Origin: Gamsiella multidivaricata
Taxonomy: Eukaryota > Mortierellomycota > Mortierellomycetes > Mortierellales > Mortierellaceae
Direction: 5' to 3'
DNA: 64,000 bases
Assembly (NCBI RefSeq): GCF_025024155.1
Contig: NW_026251729.1
Coordinates: 372,001 to 436,000, forward strand
Shown: piece after piece, positions 1-19,259 of the stretch
How the letters are laid out: each line of letters begins with the position of its first letter
Numbering within the stretch: position 1 is the stretch's first letter
Program-made: the position numbers and the translations under genes
The notes under the pieces: model-generated
Told to the model about the DNA's origin: nothing
The model's input: only the letters and a program-made list of their open reading frames with translations
The model's database searches: none

Positions 1-834
1 GCTTCGATGGCCTGCTGAATTTCTTCGAGAGAAAGCTCGCGAGGGATGACATGGTGGTGGTCCCATTGGAGATGAGCACCGCCAGAAGGGGCAACGACAT
101 TGTCGCGCCAGAAATCAGACTCTGGGTGATTGGTGTACGGAGCCTTTGCGGAGGCCTAAAACAAGTGAAAAAGACGCAATGTGAATGGTTATTGACTGAA
201 TGCAATCAGAGATACACCATGCCCGCCATGTTATTATTGTGCCTCAGACACATACCTTGCGACCAGCATGAGCGAGCTGGATACCGATCTTAGTACCCTG
301 GGCGTGCACAAAGTCAACGATCTCCTTTAGCTTATGCACTTGGGCATCGTCCCAAAGACCAGCGCATCCAGGGGTGATTCGTCCGTTCGGTTGCACGGCT
401 GTTGCCTCCTGGATGATGAGACCCGCACCATTGATCGCGAAGGAACCGATACTGGCCAGATGGAAGTTCGTGAAGAATCCATCCTTGGACGAGTACATGC
501 ACATGGGCGCGACCACGACCCTGTTTGGGATGGTTAAATCCTTGACAGTAAAAGGCTGGAAGAGCAGAGGGATCTTGTCCGCTCCAGAGAGGGAGGCATC
601 GATGGGTCCGAGGTAGGCACCGGGCGCATGGGGCTGATCGATGTAGTAACTCTCTTGAGGGTAGATTGGTCTTGACTTGGCAGCCAAAGGCTCGTAAATC
701 GAGGTCTCGACGGTGTTCTTGAGGGATGGCATTCTTGTAAGAATTGGAGAGGGGCTTGAAGTTGAGTCGGAAGCACTTGAGTGAGGGTGAGGATGAGAGA
801 ATGGTGGACTTTGCCGAAAAACGGCCGCGTTCAT
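1..834 (-). CDS. Old Yellow Enzyme family NADPH:flavin oxidoreductase, 3' end outside window
   Basis: This is the N-terminal part of an FMN-dependent ene-reductase of the YqjM/XenA-like OYE branch, which reduces activated C=C bonds with NADPH. The TIM-barrel start is visible: a [19 protein letters not shown] segment leading into PMCMYSS, which carries the Cys typical of YqjM-like enzymes, and later QLAHAGRK, an FMN-contact motif. Exon 1 ends at 256. The intron spans 255-156 with a GTATGT donor and TAG acceptor, and exon 2 runs from 155 off the left edge, ending near SLEEIQQAIEA. The first in-frame ATG is at 834; a second at 732 (MPSLKNTVE) is equally possible because the first 34 residues are Ser/Pro/His rich. 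The paralogue at 11429-12831 has the same intron position after AGRK. The family call is firm; the substrate is unknown. Confidence 0.93.
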
Positions 835-1511
835 ATAGTTGAAGTGTGACACGTTCTCCTAGAGAATGCTTATTAATCTGCATTCGGAACGTGTCACAGC
901 GGCGATTGCAACTGTCCCTGACGTTTATAAAACGGTAAATGATGGCGCCCTGTAAGTCATGGGCACAATAGTTTGCTTGGTAATTTGCTTTTTATTTTTA
1001 TTTTTTTTTGGAGTATGATAGTACGAGTGCAGATTGGTAGCAAAGGTATTGAATGAAAAAGCCATTAAAAAACTATACCGTGCCTGAGACCAGAGATCTG
1101 AGACTTTCTAGCGAGGTCTCAACGACTAATGGACCGCTGTGTTCAGATATCGCTGGGCGATAGGAAACGATTAATGATATTGTGCTTATTTCGATGATTT
1201 ATTGCGAAATGCAGGGAATAGATATACAAGGAGTGAGGATAAAACACAGAAGGAGTGCTGTGACTAAGAACGATGGAGCATATTCGGCAATGGTCTATGA
1301 TGAATAACGTGGAGTGCTGAAGCTGCTTGATTCTCTAGAACCACTTGCGGTTGAAGAAATTCTCGAAAGGCGCATCGGCCGATGGAATAATAGACCTAAA
1401 TGAGTAACATCAAGCTCCATGAATTAAACACTTCTGTCATATTCTCAAGAAGTAAAAGAAATAAATGCAACGCACAGTAAAACTCATCGCCACTATTCCT
1501 GCTATCGTCTG
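835..1511. other. Intergenic: upstream of OYE, downstream of uS13m
   Basis: No coding segment is recognised here. The stretch is AT-rich with short T runs near 990-1010. It must hold the promoter of the minus-strand OYE gene and the 3' untranslated region of the minus-strand uS13m gene. I see no RNA gene or repeat. Confidence 0.5.
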
Positions 1512-2367: not shown

Positions 2368-2566
2368 AGCGCTGTGTGTTTGAATGTCGTGCGGAAGGAG
2401 TGGGAGGATCAGATCGCCATCCCGAAACTGCTTTTTTCTTTCATAGAGAAATCCGCACATCTGCGCACCTATCACGTCACCGAAGTGGCTTCTAAGCGTC
2501 GCATACGAAATGGGAAATCATCAGGGGGAGTGTGGGGGCAGCACACAAAAAAAACTAGTCTGGCTA

Positions 2567-5500
2567 CTATTCCTCGCGGGGTCGGCGCGTCCTCTGGAGG
2601 ATCGCCATGATCTGTTCCTCCTCCTCCGAAGCCTTTCTCTTGGATGCCTTTTGGGTGCTGTCTTGGACGCTATCGAGAGTGCAGTTGTCGATGCTGCTAC
2701 TGCTACTGCTGGTTCCCTCAAAAGCTTGGTGGTCCTTTTCCTCAGCGCCCCCGGTGGTCTCCGTCTTCATCCACGGATAATTTCCCTCCTCGTCTACCGG
2801 CTGCAGGTACAAAGGCCGCTGTTGGTGGAGCAGATGTCCTTAGACGGCATTCACCATGTTGTGGGCCGCCATCTCATCCCTGTGGAATGGAGTTCCACAG
2901 TCCTCGCAGAAGAGCCTTCGGATAGACACCTGGGAAACAAATGTGTGACAACGGGGGCATTTCTTGGAGCTGTAATATTCATTAACACCAGAACGATGTA
3001 ACTAAGCGACCTGGCCTAAAGAGCGATGGCGGTGAAATGTGTGAAAGTCAATAAATGAACTATCTGTCGTAGGGACAAGAAATCGCCAGAGGAGTGAAAC
3101 ACTTACCAGGGGCACAAAGAATGCCAGAAAGGAGTCGTGGAGTGATGTGAGGCGCGAGCAACTGCTGAATTGATCAAGTCCAATGCCAATCACCACCATG
3201 TTCTTTTCCTCTCTTTTGGCGCCTATCGATCCCCCCACCGACCTCAGCAAACTGTTTGCAATTACCAGGTACTCCTCCTCCCGTGCACGTTGGGCATCCC
3301 ATTCGTGGCTCTGGTAGAGCCTGTTCGAGCCATTGTAAAAACTGCTCAAGCGCTGCTCGACCATCTCGAGCTGCTGAACGTACTGCCCAACGCTTGCATC
3401 TGGCCCGCGGAGCGGTGGGAGGTCTGACTCAATCTCTTGGATCGATTGAGTTGCACCTTCCAGTACCACCCGTTTTTGCTCCTCTGTCCATCTTCGGAAC
3501 TTGAATGTGGGTTGGTACACGGCCTTCTGGTTAACAGATATGTTGTAGTATGTCTCTGGATAGGGCGGATCCATCAAAGAGGTAGTAGAGTTCGTCCCAG
3601 GGGCGGCTGTGGAGATCGAAGAGGCAGGAGTGGCCCTGTGGGTAGTAGCGGTTGGGAAAGCAGAGGTCGTCACGACACGCCCCTTTCCTTTTTTGTCGTT
3701 AATCGGACGGTCTGTATCTGGTAAGAAGGCGCTTCCAGCTACAACATAGGCTTGACCAAGATCCGGACACAAAATCTTGATTTTTTCTGGAGGGCAATGC
3801 GGCCAGAGTCGAGTGACATCGTCCTTGGTCTTTACGACATTCCGGATCTCCTGCAAGTAATAGTCGGTACCTCCAACCGTTGACGTCAGGCGAGGGGGCA
3901 GAATGGCATCTGCCAGCCTCCGATATCGAACCGCTTGCAACTCCTTCAACTTGTAGGCAGACAGCTGAAGCCTGAAGCCATTGGTGCGGAAAGATCCTGT
4001 CAGAACATATCCCTTGAGGCTGTAATTTCGAGGGTCAAAGTTGGGGTCACGGATGGCAGACAAATGGTTCCTCGCATCCAGAAGGGACATGTTGGTGATT
4101 GCACCTCGGTATCCCAGCTTCCCTCGTTGCCGAACAGTGAGACCAGTAGGAGCGACATCTGCAATAAGGCTCTTGATTAGGAACCCTGGCTCTTGATTTG
4201 GTAACCATATGGTTTTCACGTCATCCTCCGAGGAGCAGCTGGAAAATGTGACCCTTGCCAACTCCAGAATCCGAGTTTTAAGGAGCGGTCGTTTCCAGCA
4301 TAAAGTGACGAGCTCTCGCTCCGAGAACGAGACAAAACCATCCTTTGCCGAAGATAGTGGGGCAATCTTCCGCCTGTTGCCGCTCATCATGTTGAATGCC
4401 AGAAAGCTCTCCACGGCTGTCAACTTGTTATGGATCTCCAAGTCGTATCCAACTACTTCCGGTCTGCCTTTTTTTTTGCCAACCCTTGAGCTATTGTTGA
4501 TAAAGCGACCATCTTGTATTAGAAAAATTCCTAATGTCATGCTACAGAATTCATTCAAGAAATACACTTGTCACTTGCTCTTGTAGTTCAATCGCTCCAT
4601 TGCGACAAATACGTTTGAGCTCAGCACCCAGCTGAGTAGACACACTCCGTACTAGCTCCGAAGGTGAGAAAGGTGTGCTCTGGCGTATAGTACTTGTTAG
4701 CCTTAGGGGAGTGTACAAGTTCAGCTCCCGTAATTGTCCAATGAAGCCAGTAACAAGTTTGCCAACGCCTCGATTCGTGGGAGGATTGCCCGAATAAAGG
4801 TGTCGTAGAAAGGCATAAAGGAACTGACTACTGGAACTGTCAGGTTCGCCATCGATGTCGTCGTCAGTGTGATTCTCACTACTGTCCTGGCCGCCATCTG
4901 CATCCTTGAGTTCTACCCTTGGGCATAATCCATCGAGATAGTCCCGGTCCTTTGGTTGCATATAACCAGCCGCCATGCTTTCCACGTACAGAGCAATGAG
5001 TCTCTGAGCACGTCGTTTGGTCTTGTTGGCCTCCCCAACGGCCTCCCGCAAGCAGTCAATCATCTCGTCAGCGACGTCCGCCCTGGTTTTCAATGCCGCC
5101 TGATGTTTGCTTGTATAGTGCCGATACGAAGAGTCGCCTTTGGGTGCTCCCATTTCAGCCCATTCCAGAGCTGTCGCTTGTCCATGGATTCAATAGGTGT
5201 TGGTAGCTTCGATGGCTTCTTGGCTGGCTTCTTAGCTGGCTTCTTTGGGGTCGACTTGTTCTCAACTTTCTCCAAAGGACTCTCAGGCAGCTCGGTCCAT
5301 GGCTTCCATTTGTAGCGCTTCATTGCCTGTGGAGGTTCGTGCGTTACTGTTTTCGTCCTGGTTTTAAAGGAATAGCGAGGGCGAGGAGGAGGTGTGGTAG
5401 TCGAATCCTTGCTGTCCTTCGGAGGCGGGCGGTCGATGGTGCGGTACCTGTTGAACTTTTGAGAGGATCGATGTCGAGGTGGAGAACCGGGGGACAACGC

Positions 5501-6744
5501 ACTACGTACAAAAATGGAGAAAGAAGAAAGGAATTAATAAAATACTGCAAATGCAATTGTCATCACGGACAAACTGAAATGTGTTGGTGAGGCATACCTC
5601 TTTGTTGCCTGTCTGGAAGCTAACTGCGCCTGTTTCCGCTCGGTAAACTTGCTGCGAGCGTACTGGTACCTTTCCTTGATGCCCCCAATCTCGCCTTAAG
5701 TGCGGTAGTATCTGGTTTGTCATGTTGGCCATGCGCGATCGGAGTTTGGTGAAGATGGACGAAAACATTGATGCTCGTGTCGAAAGTAATGCCGCGTTTG
5801 TTCTTGATAACAACACGTTCATCAGCAAGGTATTCTTTCACTAGTGCCGGTACGTCTTTGACTAAGAGATAAAAGATGAATGTATTAGAACAAGACATTT
5901 TTTTCAATGTGAAAAACCCAATGCATAGTACGCACCCTGATCGTCTGATCCTTTGGCTTTCATATCCTTAACGATCTTATAGTTGATCTCGCATCCCAGG
6001 CCGTACAAACTGCGATTGTAATCATTGGTCGACACAACACCCAAGACCGTAAGCTGCTCTGCCGTCTCGAGTCCCAGCGCAGATAACATGTCATTTTTCC
6101 GATACTCCAAGAAACCGCCACCACATACTGGTCGCCAAACAACAGGGATGCTGTGGTAAATGAGAAAGTCCGAGTCCCCGCTGATGACAATGTCTCCTTC
6201 CATGGTATCTGTGGCGATTTTGACATCCACCTCTGTATCACACTGCACGACCCTCCATCCGTGGTTCTCGAGAAAGCGGACAAGTCCGTTCCGAGCCTCC
6301 ACATCCCAGCGAAAGGCGTTTGTGAGTTGCTTATCGACATTGGTAAAATGGCGCTTCCTGATATGTGCGCCTTCGGATACGCGATCCATGAAAGTGTGAC
6401 ATGATCGTCGGCGGCGTCGATGACCGTTTTTCGAGCATTCTGGCGCTTTTCATGGGTTGCAAGCTTTTCCTCGCATTGAGCGCCATCGAAGTATAGAATG
6501 ACTGTCGTTGGATCCATGATGCGTTTTTCGAGATTCTTCATGACCAGAGCATGGGCGGCCTCAAGGTCACTGCAATGAGTATAGGCGTATCGAATCGTAC
6601 AATAAAAGCTTCCTTGCATGTCGACGCGAATTTGTTGTGTGGTTCACCAAGAGCTTGGCGTTGATTTCGCGGTTTTCGTAAAGCTGGGTCGTATCGCTTT
6701 TTTTTTTTGGCCGTCAGGAAGCGCCAAAAGGAAAGGCACCCCAT
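2567..6744 (-). pseudogene. FEN1/XPG-like flap nuclease fused to TnpB/Fanzor-like RuvC nuclease, frame-disrupted
   Basis: One minus-strand coding unit of about 4.2 kb with four inferred short introns. The N-terminus opens MGCLSFWRFL like XPG-N. It continues with VDMQGSFYCTIRYAY, an acidic YFDGAQCEEK block followed by a KRQ-type arginine bridge, TEVDVKIATD, and VISGDSDFLIY. STNDYNRSLYGLG matches the helix-hairpin region of FEN1/XPG nucleases. A basic Pro/Lys-rich linker follows. The C-terminal part has KILCPDLGQAYVV (RuvC-I Asp codon at 3763-3761), then VVIGIGLDQF. Next come GVNEYYSSKKCPRC, a CEDC pair and FHRDEMAAHNM (RuvC-III Asp codon at 2878-2876), as in TnpB and Fanzor zinc ribbons. The frame breaks near 6640-6708, 6392, 5682-5686, 5097 and 2990, and an in-frame TAA lies at 2842-2840. 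Either the copy is decaying or the assembly has indels. The domain reading is strong; RNA guidance is not shown. Confidence 0.75.
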
Positions 6745-7456
6745 GACGCGGACTGGATACCAATGGTGAAATGGAGAGTCGAGGCAACGTTGATTAGATA
6801 TGAGATTTATACCAAACAAGGGCTGTACAAGGAAGGAGTGGAATGAGAAAGATGACAAGTGAAGAAATCCGATAGGTGGACTCGACCAATTGCAACCAAG
6901 GGTGATAAGTGGCAACGAAGTGAGATGCAGAGGATGCGGAGCAATAAAAAAGAATATTTGCTCCAATAAGGATGGCACGTACCTGTGAAGGCAATGGTTC
7001 AAAGGACAAACAGCCAATATTGGTTATGGTAATGGGCAGAAGGAGCGGATAAGGGAAAGTGAGCGCGGGGGAGGAAACAAAAACGACACGCGTCCTTCTA
7101 GCTGGAACGGGGCGAGAACTCAAGACGCGATTAAGCAGCATTTGCGATTACAAGAAGGCATACTTCCTCCAGCATCACCCTTCCCGTCTTCGTCCCCCTT
7201 CGCCTCTAGCCCAACACATATTCATGTTCAGTTTGATAGTCTATTCTGTAGACAACAATAAAATTCTATCTTTTCTTCTCCTTTCATGTCAAGTTCTTGA
7301 CAACTATCACATGAGGCCGTTGTTACATAGTGGATTTCACGCTCATTGGTCTTAAGGCAGACGCGAACAAGATTGCCATTTCAACCTTTAAAACGCCGAT
7401 ATCAGCCATCATGCATTGCCATTAACAGAGATCTATAAATTAGAGCCGTGTCTACT
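6745..7456. other. Intergenic between divergent nuclease and transposase genes
   Basis: No gene is supported. The stretch is the shared 5' region of the minus-strand FEN/RuvC gene and the plus-strand MULE gene. I looked for inverted terminal repeats here and saw none by eye. Confidence 0.4.
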
Positions 7457-9575
7457 ATGGTGCTTTCTCTTCCCGTTCCCTCTGCACTGTCAACCATGCT
7501 GCCCATTGTTCTGAGAATAAAGGACATCCTTCATTTTGCCCCTCCCGACGTCAACCCCCTGGATCCCATCACACCTTTTGCCATTCCACCTCAATCAGTC
7601 AATCCCCTGATTCTTACCTTCACTTGCCAAGAGTTTCGCGCTTTTTGGGCGCAGGAGAGGCGAGCATATGATTGGCAGTACCGAACTGCCGCCCACTCTA
7701 AATTTTACAGGCAGGACCATGAAACCCCTTGCCCAACAGGTCCTCCCACCTTGCCACACATGCGAGTCGCCCTGGCAGAAAGCCTGAGTTTGACTGGAGC
7801 CTGCAGTACATATGCCGCCGTTGGCATAAACCAAAAGAAATCAAGAACGGAATCGTTTCTGTTGGAGCAGATTGCAAGGCATCCCTCACTGTGCGGAAAA
7901 TCATTGAAAAAGACGAGATTCAAGTCGAATATCATTGGGAGCATAATCATGACACGTCTGCCACAGCACGAGCGAAATTGCCTTGCGGACGAAATGACCG
8001 AGAATGGCTCCAACAGCAGGTTGATCAAGGCCATGATTGGAAGTCGATCCAGAAGAAGTTACGTCCTGATCAAGAGTTGGTGCAAGACGTGAGTCTTCTA
8101 TGTGCATGTTGTGTATGTTATTCGCCAAGATATGCCATAATCGATGCTAATTGCTCTTTTTAAATTTACTGAAGCAGATGCAAAGCGGCAATGTTATACC
8201 CCCACCTGCTTTAGCCATCAGCCAGAACGATGCTCGGGCTGCTCTTTACAGGCGGAGAATAAGGGAATCGCAGAAGGACAAGGACCTTGTGAAGAGTATC
8301 GAGCTATGGCTCCAAGCCATTAGAGAAAAGAGAGGAAAGACCCTGTTCGACCACAAACCGAGAGAGCAGGTTGATGGCTTTTTTTGATTGCCTGGTGCAC
8401 ATCATTTCAGCTTGAGATATATTGTGCAAAGCGTTGTTTATTATTATCACTGAGGTGCTGTAGATGCTGACAATCCGCTTTCTATATTCCTTCTTCACTA
8501 TTTGCAAGGTGATGGCTGACAACAACTCCATTTATTGTATGGACTCCACCCACAAGACTGTAACAAGTATCAAGATATTGCTATCGGATGGCGGCACCAC
8601 TATCAAATCAGCTTATTTGTTCACGTTGCTGGTAAAGGATCGAGTTGTACAGAAAGGCATTCCAGTCGCCTTTCTGATCAGCTCTTCTGAATCACAGTAC
8701 GTTGCATTTACTACCTTTTACCCCAACTTTTTTGGTGCTTCCTTATGCGACGATTGACCAGCGCCGCTATAACACATAGATATAACATTCAAGCTTGGTT
8801 GCGATGGCTGACAAATGAGTATGGCCTGAGAACAGCAGCATTCATGGTCGACTGTGCCCTAACTGAGTCTGCTGCTATCTTGAGCATATTCCCTCACACA
8901 AGGATTTTTTATTGCGACTTCCATGTCGCCCAGCTCTGGGAGAAGCATTTGAAGGAGAAGCGTTCGGTGGGTTTCTACAGCCATGTTGCTTGCTGCAATT
9001 CTCCGGAGTCACTTAGCATATTCGCAAGGTATTAACGTAACGCCTCTTACCTGTACCACTTCGGTCAATAACTGTTAGGTTGCGGAATGCATGCAGATGA
9101 GACCACTGTTGAAAGAGATTCGCAAGGCTAAGACTGCGGTGGATCAGGAGCGCCTATGGGCAGCATTTAAAAGAAAATTCCCCACAGCAACTACTTTAAT
9201 CGAGTATATCGAGAATCGTTGGCTCAACGAACATGTGGAGCGCTGGACTGCATATCATAGAATGGTAAGGGTTCTTGATGTGAGCAAAGATGGACAATAG
9301 GTGGAAGGCTCTGGAAACTGAACTTGATGCGCACACCCTGATAATAGGATGGCCAAGAAGTCACCACCAATAACTGGGTAGAATCTTGGCACAAGACCTT
9401 AAAGCAGAAACACCTGGGCCACGAACGGAACGTGCGGGCAGACTATCTGGTTTATCTTTTGGAAGGCGCAGTTGACGCGGATTTCCGCGTCGAGTATTTT
9501 AAGATCAAGAATGGATTAGCGCCACCCCCGCTTAGGCTCGACCCCAGCCTGAGGGAGAGACCGAGAGAGCATTAA
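7457..9575 (+). CDS. MULE-type (Mutator-like) transposase gene, multi-exon, SWIM domain lacking
   Basis: Readable MULE/FAR1-like protein. An N-terminal DNA-binding-like block (DWSLQYICRRWHK, then HWEHNHDTS with a CxnH pattern) comes before a DDE core. That core has YCMDSTHKTV (first Asp), FMVDCALTE (second Asp) with FYCDFHVAQLWEKH, and NNWVESWHKTLK (Glu). Inferred exons end or start at 8088/8178, 8369/8464, 8696/8762, 8966/9079 and 9264/9348. All introns have GT-AG ends and keep frame. A frame change near 7725 in the first part leaves the start uncertain. The protein stops at 9575 before the C-terminal SWIM zinc finger that usually follows, with possible frame-shifted remains to about 9690. 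No terminal inverted repeats were seen. It could be a decaying element or a domesticated transposase. Confidence 0.8.
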
Positions 9576-9828
9576 ATGCACATGAATTCAGTCATTGCCT
9601 TTTTAGGCGCAGACGACATTCGTCTCCTCTCAGGCTGGTACACAAGTCGGGGGCCTACTATGCTCTAAATAAAAAGGAAGGTTGTTAAGGGTTCTAGCTG
9701 TGGTTTCTTCGAGTCTCTTAATATTTTTTCGGGGTGCCCACGTTTGTGTATCCGCCTGGACTGAAAGCGCGCTTCTTTCCTTCATTCAGCTTCCTCATCA
9801 GCACCTCCAATTCTTCTCCATTGCCTGA

Positions 9829-10174: not shown

Positions 10175-12831
<2,657 letters not shown>

Positions 12832-14441: not shown

Positions 14442-14779
14442 GTGAATATGTGATCGAGTTGGGTTTGGGTGATGAGTGAGATAGAAGGAAAGATGTTTGC
14501 AAGTGATGGGCAAGCAAAAGGAGTGGAAGGGACGAATGGTTCATGCGCACTTTTGAATGTCCTTCCTTTTTGACGCGTCGCCTGGAAAGTAAAGTCATTT
14601 CAGCACAGGTTGAAGCTACGTCACCATCGAGGAATTACGTAGCCGAAGACTCTAGAGTCTTGGAGGCTGCTCGCTTGCATCCTCTTGTCCTGCAGAGGCA
14701 GATACCATACTGGCGCTGCTGGTGTTACTGCCATGCTCTGTCTACAACTTCGCAGCTTGCTCCCAGGGATACGTCCCAT
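14442..14779. other. Intergenic between RPT3 start and decayed nuclease copy
   Basis: No coding feature recognised. It should contain the RPT3 promoter. The sequence between here and 14900 grades into the decayed zinc ribbon of the next feature. Confidence 0.4.
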
Positions 14780-17700
14780 TCTCATACATTGGCTAGAGAT
14801 ATAGAACGACGTTGTAGATGCTACAGGCCTTGCAATATAGTCTACGAATCTCGACTTGCCGAACTGCTCGCATGTTGGGCACTTATTTATCGTGTAATAC
14901 TCATTCACACTCACGACAAAGTAACCAAGGGACCTAGCCTAGCAAACTGTAAAAAGGAAGCAGCACCACGCTAATGTTATCCACAATAAAAAACAGAAAA
15001 GGATGCTCAATATTTCATATCCCCGGTTCATATTTTTTGAACAAAGTACGACTAGAAGGACTCGTGCAAAGAGGAAAACCTGGTCTTTGATGAAAACTGT
15101 CCAAGACCCATCCCTTGTTGGTTTCATCCCTCTGCCTGCCGATTGACCCCCCCAATTAACTTAAGCAAACGGTCCGTAATGATAGTGGATTCGGCATCCC
15201 TGGCCTTACCGGCGTCCCACAAATGTTTTTTGAAGCGCATGTTGCTGTGGTTGTAAAGCTATCGAGCCCCTCTTGTGCTTTTTCGAGCTCCATGAAATAA
15301 GTTATACAGCTGGAGCCATCGCCGCGAAGAGGGGACAGATCACCCTCGATGTCGTTGATTAATTTTGTTTTGTTGAGAGGTACGGTTCTTTTCTGCTCTT
15401 TCATCCAGTGTCTGTGCTTGAAGGATGGCTGATAAACAGCTTTATACTTCACAGTCAGATTGTAATAAGTGACAGGGCTGGCAGTGGAGGTAGTGCCATC
15501 GAATGGCTCTTCCATATGGGTACCGCCGTCTGATCACGTCTAGCCTTCTTGGGTAACAACGCGTTCACCCCGACTACACAGGCTTGGCAAAGATCGAAAC
15601 ATAGGATCTTGATTTACTTTGGTTTACATCCTCAAAGAGCTGTGACATCCTCCTGGATCCTCACAACGTTTCGGACTTTGGTCAAAATAGTAATCCACGC
15701 CGCCGTTAGTGAGGTGATTTGAGGTGGAAGGCATCCTAGGTGAGTCGAATGTATCAGACCAACTGCAACTCCCTCAGTTTGAAAGCGAGTACTGAGGGCG
15801 AAAATATCAGTCCGAAGAAGCCCATGGAGGGGATAGTCGCGTTTGATGTAGGGTTTGGGATCGAAGTTGTTTTGCCGAAAGAACGTAAGATGCTGTTGAA
15901 TATTGCTGGATTCTTGTACGATTCAATGCTCCTGGTTTACTTCATGAATAGCCTTGTAATAAGGAACTCTAGTTCTTGGTTGACCAGCCAGTACTCTGCG
16001 TCTCGAAGTGCAAGGGCATAATCCTTGCTCCATAAGGTTCTTCTTGAGCACCTTGCTCTGCCAAAAGATACAAAGCAGCTCCTCTTCCGAGTACGAAGCG
16101 AAAGGCTGGCTAATAGGCGTTACAGAAACTAGCCTACGAGGATTCTTGCTGATTTGGTTCAAGCGGATAAAATTCTCGATCGCCGAGAACTCGCTACGAA
16201 TCTCGATGCTGCGCTCATCTGGCAAGAGCCCTTTGTCCTTTTAGGTCTTAAGCTGCAATAGCAAGAGCTGGCGCTGTTAACTTCGCATCTTTTAGATTGT
16301 TACCCGAGTTAAAGTCAATAAAGTTTTTTACCTTTTCATGCAACTCCAAGGTACCATTTCTGTAATTCGCTTGAACTCAGTTGAGTGCTGTGAGGCAACG
16401 GATCGCAGTAATGCCGTTCCTGGATATGACACTCTCGTCCTTATTGCAGCTTCATTTCCTTTGTCCAGAAATTCTAAGTCCTGTTCTCAATCAAGAAACC
16501 GTCGCATGCACTGGCCGATCTGCGTTTTGTCGGAGGGATTGCCTGAATAGAGATCTCGTAGTAGCATGCCAAGGAACTGAGTCTGAACACTGCCTTGACC
16601 CTTCTCACCCTCCTCCTCTTCCTTCCCTTTCCTCTTTTCTCTCTCTTCCTCTTCGTCGTTCGTATCGTTTTTTCCGTCACCTTTGCTCCTCGCTGGAATA
16701 CATGGACAGATATGGTCTAACAGTTCTACTCCTGGAAGATGCCTTGAGTAGTATCACACTCAATGAATCGACCAACAACCTTCTGGCGGGATCGCTTGGT
16801 GTTCGCTGAGAGGTGGACGGCTTCCCGAATATGCTTGAGTACTTCGCGCGCCAAATCAGGTTCTCGGTCTAAGGTCCTGTTGACATTCGCGGATAGAATC
16901 CCATTATCGAGGGTTGCTGTAGGATGTTTCCATCGCAGAGCACGGACCATATCGGCCTTGCGCGTGTTCTCCACCGCCATCACCTTCTCACTCACTGTTG
17001 GATTCTCTTTCTTTGTGAAGTATTGGGAACCGAAAGTGGGTGAGAAAGAGATGTAAGTCCACGCACCACACCGATTGCGTATTTATTACATTCCTCACAT
17101 TAAGTAAACTACCTTGGGCTCTGGTGAAATATGCGACATTATTCTTTTCAGGAGCATCGGCACCGCGGTCTGGCGCCAGAAAAGGCGCCAGCTTCTAAGG
17201 TTTCCATAAGTACTGCTTCATATTCTCTGGTGGTTCGTGCTCTATTTTTCGGTTGCGCACTTTGGCGGAATATCGTGGCCGGTGATGGGGTGTCTTTGTT
17301 GGAGGTAAAGAAGGCCGGTCAGCTGTCTCCTTCGCGCCTTCTTCTCTCGGGGCATTTGTGTCTTGTGGAGGAGCAGGGCGATCAATCGTACGGTAGCCGC
17401 TGAATGTCTGTATGGACTTGTGCTGGTGAATATCCCCCACAGATGACGCATTATTATGATTCGCAATGAAGAAGGCAGCGTTAGTAAGATGGATGCGCTT
17501 AGGAAAGTGGCATAGGAATACAAACAGCATTTGATGACAGAGCAGCAGTGGTCCGTACCTTTTTTCCGTTTGGCGCCCATCTTGCAGCACCTCCTGAATC
17601 TCGGTATACTGGTCTCGAAGATGGTTGAAGTTGGAGCGAGGTTCTTGATACGCGGGTGCCGTGAAGGACTGGACTCGCGACTTAGGCTGTAAAAGAGTCT

Positions 17701-18475
17701 GCGCGCCTTAGACAAAGACTCGTAACGAAGTGTCGAACGTCTCTTTTCCTGCATTCTTAACAACGATCAGACTGTGAGATAGATGCTGCTGTACCAAAAA
17801 AAATATAAGATACATCAGAACAAACGCTTGATGACGCTGAAGTTAGTGGCACATCCCAGCGAGGGGGCGTTGGTGCTGTATTCATTCTTGGAAACCACGC
17901 CCAGGACTATGAGCTGAGTCTATTGATATGTAGTGTCTCTGGGATATGTGGAACACCGTAAACCGAAAAATCGATCTTTCGAGATCGGTCGCCATACAGT
18001 CGAGATCCTTGCGTAAAATAACACTGCTCCGCGACAGGACAATATCGTCAGGCATGCAGTCTTGAGCGGCCTTGAGATCCGCTTCGGCCTGGCACCCTTG
18101 CGCAGACCATTCCTTCTGCTGAAGATGCCTTTCAAAAGCCTGTCGCGTCTCGAGTCTCCAATAGAAAACCATTGCCAGGTTTCTCTGCACGATAACGAGC
18201 TGCTGTTTCCGCGCACATAGCTTATTTTCACGCAATCCTTCAGCTGACTGATGCTGATTTGAGCCCCCATCGTGGCCTTTGCGCGGATTGCTTGTTAATA
18301 GGTATGAACGAATTCCTTTTCTTGCGAAAGAGGGCCGTCCAAGTAAAGAACCAAGTTGGCAGGAGTCCCGAGCATCTCTATTGCCCACTCGACGATATTG
18401 TATGCAACTTCCATTGTGTGGTCTGTGTATACAGATCAAATTGTAGAGGAAAGAGACCCTAGGATGTCTACTCAA
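14780..18475 (-). pseudogene. Degenerate second copy of the FEN1/XPG-RuvC fusion gene
   Basis: Collinear fragments of the 2.6-6.7 kb gene appear in the same order on the same strand. Near 18400-18300 there is NLVLYLDGPLSQEKEF (FEN acidic block) with an in-frame TAA. Near 18180-17990 come WRLETRQAFERHL and AEADLKAAQDCMPDDIVL. The equivalent of the GDSD motif there reads SRSSV, so catalytic acids are lost. Near 17400-17200 there is a linker like the first copy (GYRTIDRPAPP, EHEPPENMKQYLWKP). KADMVRALRWKHPTATLDN lies near 16950. KILCFDLCQACVVG near 15590 keeps the RuvC-I Asp. VTYYNLTVKYKAVYQPSFK lies near 15470. The zinc ribbon at 14910-14800 reads NEYYTINKCPTC and, after a frameshift, RRLYCKAC. 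The final HRD motif is lost. No long ORF spans it. Confidence 0.8.
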
Positions 18476-19259
18476 CGCGTCGGGCCACTATAAAAAGGAC
18501 TGAGAAGAACGGAGTGTTCATAGCGCACAGTAACCTCACATGCTTTCTTTTTTTTTTTTTTTTTTTTTTTGAGAAAAGGTTATAAGCCGTAGATGCCCGT
18601 CGCAGAATCGCGAGAATGTAAAGTTATCGGAGATAGAGGTTTGGTGTAAAGGTTGTGATCAATATCAGGCGTTCGCCGGAAACCTTTAGATCCCATCCAA
18701 AAAAAAGAGGTTTGGATGCGTAGAAAAATTATGGGCCATGTGTGGGAGCCAGGGCGGTGCTTCTCGAATTGACGCGATAGTGGTGCTTCTGGTTGCCGTC
18801 CTGTTGCCCTGCAGTTGGCTGCGATGATATCGTATGGTCCCGACTCAGGTACGGGTCGGTCCAGTGCGCTGGTTGCGGGGTAGAGATAGACCTCGTCTAT
18901 TCCCATATGAAATGCGATATTTGGTGCAGTCGCGCACCTTCAGCCCAAAGTCGACGATTAAGAAACCATTGCTAGTTTCTTTTGCACAGACGAGGCGCCT
19001 TGATGCTCAGTACAGTATTTGCTTTGTGCATGGACATCAATCCTTTTCGTTCCCCATCAAAGTCGACCGCCAACAGCACTCGCCCAGTCGAACATGCTGC
19101 GATATAAATAGGACGCCAGAAGAAGAGCAACAGCACCGACAAGAACAGCTCCTTCTTCCGTATCACTCGCTCTCCACCTGTTATCTCCATCCTCCTCTTC
19201 CTCTTCAGACGATCTCTGCCATTCTCAAACCCAACTCGCACATTCATATACCACTCGAA
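18476..19259. other. Intergenic region upstream of ATG12
   Basis: Contains a 23-base T run at 18548-18570 and no recognised gene. ORFs on either strand (for example 18580-18906 minus) show no family features. CTCC/TCTTCC-rich sequence at 19150-19230 is typical of a fungal 5' leader ahead of the ATG12 start. Confidence 0.4.
18548..18570. repeat. Homopolymer T tract (23 bases)
   Basis: Read directly. It lies just beyond the 5' side of the decayed nuclease copy, counted on the minus strand. It may be a poly(A) remnant, or one of several similar tracts in this window. Confidence 0.9.

Follow-up and report, generated by a model that had tools for sequence, protein, structure and literature searches.

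Fanzor1 proteins of Rhizopus, Phycomyces and Mucor have been described from MuDr-type elements with MuDr-type terminal inverted repeats (TIRs), 9-bp target-site duplications (TSDs) and no MuDR transposase (PMC3627910). Characterised Fanzors measure 400-700 aa, and the source of this range states their biological roles as unknown and relates the view that cutting by TnpB serves to have the insertion sequence copied by recombination (PMC10432273). The window considered here is a 64,000-nucleotide stretch of the 37.5-Mb genome of Gamsiella multidivaricata (positions 372001-436000 of contig C95, NW_026251729.1), and it holds a broken element in which a Fanzor, which belongs to the RNA-guided type and is a eukaryotic relative of Cas12 of CRISPR systems, is fused behind a complete XPG/EXO1-type nuclease and is accompanied by the gene of a Mutator-like element (MULE) transposase. 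Academ DNA transposons of eukaryotes also encode an XPG-family nuclease, together with another transposase; they are not known to have a Fanzor. Fanzor1 in MuDr-type elements is known, and what differs here is the XPG fusion and the MULE gene in the same element. A fusion of XPG with Fanzor, or of TnpB with a flap nuclease, was not found in the open-licence literature, outside which lie preprints and most subscription papers. The locus is read here as a decayed two-gene Mutator-like DNA transposon of Mortierellaceae, a family of soil fungi, that would work by guided cutting, resection and copying back, a statement that, taken as a whole, is given a probability of about 0.5; there is almost no doubt about which parts it contains.

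The first-pass annotation of the window had proposed, from motifs at 2567-6744, a FEN1/XPG flap nuclease and a TnpB/Fanzor-like nuclease on one polypeptide. The motifs are present there in minus-strand frames, namely the XPG-type acids RVD, YFDG, TEVD, DSD and NDY and, for the other half, RuvC-I PDLG, NEYYSSKKCPRC, a second CxxC and HRDEMAAHNM, and profile, fold and catalytic residues confirm both halves on a single chain. Exon pieces and profiles were needed to recognise the domains of the window gene, since its 522-codon frame alone gave no Pfam match and only chance hits with phmmer against the PDB. The protein query was assembled by joining the exons of L009, a copy in better condition, whose pieces are separated by short GT-AG introns. 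This query retrieved 52 annotated relatives at E values up to 0.01, all from genera placed in Mortierellaceae by taxonomy, and the full-length relatives that had been sought are among them, with 21 of the 52 covering at least 90% of query residues 1-1240; the protein measures about 1050-1360 aa. The C-terminal half alone retrieved 161 proteins; among the 120 listed, those with an organism name are again Mortierellaceae. In both searches, scoring was confined to the 8000 candidates with the most words in common, so relatives outside this family may exist. A single-protein query of IMG/VR, of a kind that finds close relatives only, returned no relative. In a viral structure library, giant-virus transposases and flap endonucleases were matched, with no protein shown to join both among the 50 of 158 matches listed. 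Domain scans were then carried out singly, at E up to 0.01, on 20 of the 52 relatives picked for length. NCBIfam guided_TnpB matched all 20 (with a score under the NCBI curated cut-off for P0001, the sole protein with its table shown), as did the Pfam TNB model (Cas12f1-like), while flap endonuclease-1 matched 15/20 and XPG_I 10/20; the Pfam XPG_N model had no match in these scans. Against the PDB, the N-terminal part of the profile of the relatives matched Rad2 (E 1.2e-8), FEN1, XPG and EXO1, and its TNB end matched LaTranC (E 0.002). The RuvC half gave weak profile matches to APMV L79 and GtFz1.

The same association is found in the genome. For 56 of the 109 TNB exons, the same strand carries an XPG match no more than 6 kb upstream, at 2.7-3.3 kb for 42 of the 56, as against 3/109 downstream on the same strand and 3/109 upstream on the opposite strand. 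Because annotated relatives, profile scans and this fixed genomic spacing agree, the XPG and Fanzor pairing is neither chance nor a by-product of frame repair. When pieces of the C-terminal half were grouped (71 clusters from 100 pieces), 38 clusters had XPG at most 4 kb upstream in the same orientation (opposite-strand control: 4), 18 had a divergent MULE match no further than 7 kb away, and both were present at 14. Both sets of counts are lower bounds, as one subfamily supplied the queries for XPG and MULE and several copies reach contig ends. The copies at contig ends are taken as assembly breaks in repeats, a telomeric position having been rejected with no TTAGGG arrays in the fetched loci. 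No XPG match was present within 6 kb upstream of the other 53 of the 109 TNB exons. Four such loci were fetched. L034 and L036 are members of the family reduced to remnants by deletion; the remaining two (L035:2615-3516, plus strand, and L037:3030-3251, plus strand) are other Ealt-type Fanzor-like loci, whose fetched stretch showed no XPG match, and could serve as outgroups. A domesticated gene around one Fanzor piece was also considered and rejected, its long open frame being a run of N.

The predicted full-length model is confident. Its residues 2-297 match EXO1 and FEN1, with the XPG fold present from the N-region through the helix-hairpin segment, so that the FEN1/XPG type first proposed for this half stands as an XPG-family fold and is refined to one closest to EXO1, tied with FEN1. 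Residues 446-1124 form a Fanzor fold with REC, WED, RuvC and TNB, and in this model the long middle stretch is mostly a Fanzor recognition part. The absence of a RuvC fold from the C-terminal half, or homologues with the halves in separate genes, had been named beforehand as what would tell against the proposal; a Fanzor fold was found instead, and in annotated homologues a single gene encodes the two halves.

Catalytic residues were compared in 51 of the 52 relatives (P0051 left out). Among proteins with a residue at the position, the seven acids of FEN1 type are kept in 20/22, 27/28, 32/33, 34/34, 33/35, 34/35 and 37/39. Thirteen proteins span all ten acid positions (seven of XPG and three of RuvC), 11 of them have ten acids, and the window pieces carry the same ten; all three RuvC acids are found in 29/51 aligned proteins, many of the others being incomplete. 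The Fanzor membership motif given in PMC3627910, D-X(125,275)-[TS][TS]XX-C4 zinc finger-X(5,50)-RD, is present in P0006 as D877, T1066-S1067, C1070/C1073/C1087/C1090 and R1096-D1097, and its columns are well kept across relatives (D in 50/50, the C4 columns in 28-31 of the 30-33 with a residue, the last D in 31/32). The RuvC-II Glu stands six residues ahead of the first CxxC in 32/33 proteins with a residue there, which is the Ealt position of Fanzors according to PMC10711439, in agreement with the first-pass reading of the Glu of NEYYSSK as a moved RuvC acid. The protein resembles Fanzor1 (SpuFz1, GtFz1, PpFz1) in the fold of its C-terminal part, the Ealt Glu, the C4 zinc ribbon and its life in a DNA transposon, and differs in being fused behind a complete XPG/EXO1-type nuclease and in its RuvC-I, mostly DLG in the lineage of the window. 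With EXO1, FEN1 and XPG (Rad2) it shares the N-terminal fold, the seven acids and the helix-hairpin NDY segment; it differs in being transposon-borne and Fanzor-joined, in having Asp as the second acid of the XPG-I pair and in lacking the XPG_N match.

The fusion gene belongs to a mobile unit. In particular, L017 (on contig C137) is a 5757-bp unit with 9-bp TSDs and imperfect TIRs, in which a MULE gene stands beside the Fanzor part and the XPG part and some of the middle are absent, whereas L009 has XPG, Fanzor and MULE inside 13-bp repeats of flanking DNA. The partner gene, which the first-pass annotation had not named, is a probable Mutator-like transposase on the strand opposite to the fusion gene. 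TSDs of 9 bp also surround L016 and L018, and TSDs of 10 bp L019. When the TIRs of three units were tested, as good a match arose in 0/2000 shuffles each for L017 and L019 and in 34/2000 for L016. The transposase gene is missing from L018 and L019, where the fusion gene is retained; as these two loci have a common deletion junction and different TSDs, this shortened form moved, presumably mobilised in trans. The elements of Rhizopus, Phycomyces and Mucor are alike in carrying Fanzor1 between TIRs, with 9-bp TSDs, in early-diverging fungi, but they encode no MuDR transposase and XPG goes unmentioned in the main text of PMC3627910, whereas the Mortierellaceae element has both an XPG domain and a MULE gene. 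Within the XPG-Fanzor MULE copy of L016, an unrelated DDE transposase gene, pogo-like by eye, was also seen (L016:4133-6873, minus strand).

The same order of parts recurs in two further lineages of the same genome, on contigs C115 (lineage 2; L029, L031) and C108 (lineage 3; L030, L032), the window belonging to lineage 1. Lineage 2 has IDPGEV and HEYYTSARCP, with HEYYTSARC at the Ealt position, and lineage 3 has VDPGEV and DEYLTSSKCPSC, with DEYLTSSKC at that position. Lineage 1 and the joined readings of the other two align over 872 columns with probability 100, and in two annotated proteins of lineage 3, P0160 and P0163, a single chain holds both the XPG part and the RuvC part, although the gene models of the two end before the last exon. 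From these sequences we infer a single old fusion that later diversified. Between the subfamilies of L021 and L024, the ratio of nonsynonymous to synonymous divergence (dN/dS) is 0.15 for the RuvC exon, and the XPG exon has dN 0.27 with dS saturated, so both halves were held by selection over this divergence; near-identical copies give ratios of about 0.2 to 1.0, as in decaying copies. In a comparison with L021 and L027, L022 (C134) looks mosaic, as from recombination between copies: its identity to L021 is about 96% in the XPG half and about 82% in the RuvC half.

Several subfamilies have, directly 3' of the stop codon and ending at the element end, a block of about 95-130 nt. It comprises a U-run, a short hairpin and a terminal stem, near the apex of which stands TGACGT or a variant. 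Out of 26 loci looked at, 16 were aligned, ten having been dropped as near-duplicate, cut off or without a recognisable block, and seven representatives were tested. Three of the seven fold at or beyond 299/300 dinucleotide shuffles (mean z -2.44), and the pairing of the terminal 14 nt is weakly unusual (p 0.027). No ghost loci were found for the one RNA type searched, all 7 places adjoining a TNB exon. Judged by position and partial conservation, the block fits a candidate omegaRNA.

MULE transposases excise and insert their element, and the transposase encoded here would be expected to do so. An omegaRNA would be transcribed from the 3' end of the fusion gene through the element end, with flanking DNA as guide. 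After excision, the Fanzor half would cut the emptied site or an element-free allele, the EXO1/FEN1-like half would resect 5' strands or trim flaps and R-loop ends at the break, and homologous recombination from the sister or homologue would then copy the element back. Since resection commits a break to recombination, the attachment of an EXO1/FEN1-like nuclease fits copy-back of the TnpB kind. A role in cutting followed by resection is the likeliest of several, at somewhat less than even odds; its strictest form, a one-protein machine in which an RNA-guided Fanzor and a built-in EXO1-like nuclease make recombination-competent ends and the MULE gains copies, is proposed more tentatively still. 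As the fusion is kept in three divergent lineages with a transposase at hand, a role of Fanzor becomes testable, and if both active sites prove to be needed, Fanzors would act through break repair. As a natural enzyme, the protein may combine an RNA-guided cut with subsequent resection and, if this is true, would be a precedent in nature for man-made fused nuclease-exonuclease editors.

A number of points weigh against this reading. The guide RNA, cutting, resection, transposition and copy-back are all steps that we infer. Matches to the transposase profile PF10551 stay under the Pfam cut-off, with E 6.8e-4 in L009 and E 0.005 in the window, although the SWIM finger of L009 reaches 25.3 bits over a cut-off of 19.6. 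No nearby MULE match accompanies 53 of the 71 clusters (with the one-subfamily query, which makes the matches a lower bound), and most genome copies are broken. The non-coding RNA that had been suspected at the 3' flank finds support in the similar blocks of other subfamilies and not in a shared structure: RNAalifold found no common pair in the 16 aligned blocks, the short 5' hairpin is at chance level (combined p 0.39), and the block of the window itself folds no better than shuffles (z 0.18; z -0.57). RuvC-I is DPG in only 3/50 lineage 1 proteins. Finally, the first XPG-I acid is Gln in lineage 3 (L030, P0160, P0163), where the RuvC residues are kept, so that the XPG active site may be impaired there. 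This combination hints at separate fates for the two active sites.

In another view, the protein is a helper of the transposase, with XPG acting on MULE flaps, hairpins and gaps, the Fanzor half mainly bringing XPG to the element ends, and guided cutting being secondary; the fusion gene would then presumably stand in place of mudrB, the second gene of maize MuDR. The divergent two-gene layout agrees with this, as do L018 and L019, with one junction, differing TSDs and the fusion gene retained when the transposase gene was not. The preserved RuvC acids and the purifying selection on the RuvC exon weigh against the helper role, which is regarded as unlikely. XPG-family enzymes also act on R-loops and RNA flaps, and XPG could trim an R-loop or guide transcript from the Fanzor half with no resection of a break, to which the adjoining non-coding block would lend itself; with an N-terminal fold closest to EXO1, even if tied with FEN1, this is judged improbable. 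A different origin of the RuvC half, from a separately acquired bacterial TnpB of Ealt type and not from a true Fanzor, would account for the D[LGA]G found at RuvC-I in 47 of the 50 lineage 1 proteins (DLG 34, DGG 9, DAG 4; DLG in the window), as D{P}G Ealt TnpBs are described in PMC10711439. DPG, reported as near-exclusive for Fanzors, is nonetheless the RuvC-I motif of the two loci of lineages 2 and 3 that were read, and of P0160 and P0163 too. The best matches in the fold search of the C-terminal half are Fanzor structures, with no TnpB among the 50 matches listed, and the weak profile matches are to APMV L79 and GtFz1; such an origin is judged very improbable. A reading as two separate genes, united only through gene prediction or through reading across frames, could appeal to broken genome copies and automatic gene models, but is given almost no credence in view of the single annotated proteins in many species and in lineage 3, the fixed XPG-TNB spacing, the GT-AG introns of L009 and the confident full-length model.

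Returning to the copy in the window, the coordinates 2567-6744 of the first-pass annotation come close to the gene, while the mobile unit is larger (2448..9534, no strand assigned) and holds the second gene. Its left end is intact at 2448, a border common to L017, L018, L019 and L020, and its right end is lost at about 9534, a break point past which L017 runs on; no right TIR and no TSD were found for it, nor a second copy of its left flank. The left TIR (2448..2482, plus strand) is defined by an imperfect inverted match between the ends of the near-identical copies L017 and L019, and overlaps the non-coding block 3' of the gene, the candidate omegaRNA region (2448..2560, minus strand); other subfamilies have a similar block in this position. 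The fusion gene follows on the minus strand, with a last exon (2842..3000) carrying NEYYSSKKC, the C4 zinc ribbon (TNB) and HRD, which matches PF07282 over the cut-off at 2855-2986 and has a premature in-frame stop at plus-strand position 2842. Next come the Fanzor part, with a WED-like stretch and the RuvC-I to RuvC-II region (3005..4570, the 522-codon open frame), and the middle part, a predicted Fanzor recognition region and flexible linker (4551..5533, in two frames); the P0006 stretches homologous to these align with SpuFz, the latter from residue 446 on. The XPG/EXO1/FEN1-type half occupies 5904..6744 in several frames, with tblastn matches at 5946-6386 and 6407-6529. Frame changes affect both the XPG part and the middle part; with these and the premature stop, the window copy is a decayed gene. 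The divergent MULE transposase gene (7439..9534, plus strand; matches at 7768-8064, 8784-8969, 9061-9267 and 9348-9554) is cut off before the SWIM zinc finger. No Rfam family was found at gathering thresholds in 2400-9600.

A second, more decayed XPG-Fanzor copy lies at 14621-18487 on the minus strand, where NEYYTINKCPTC, KHPTATLDNGILSANVNRT and XPG pieces can be read in many frames. The element region is flanked by two related open frames (244-858, minus strand, and 11336-12019, plus strand) with about 71% mutual alignment, which we take to resemble Old Yellow Enzyme-type NADPH dehydrogenases.
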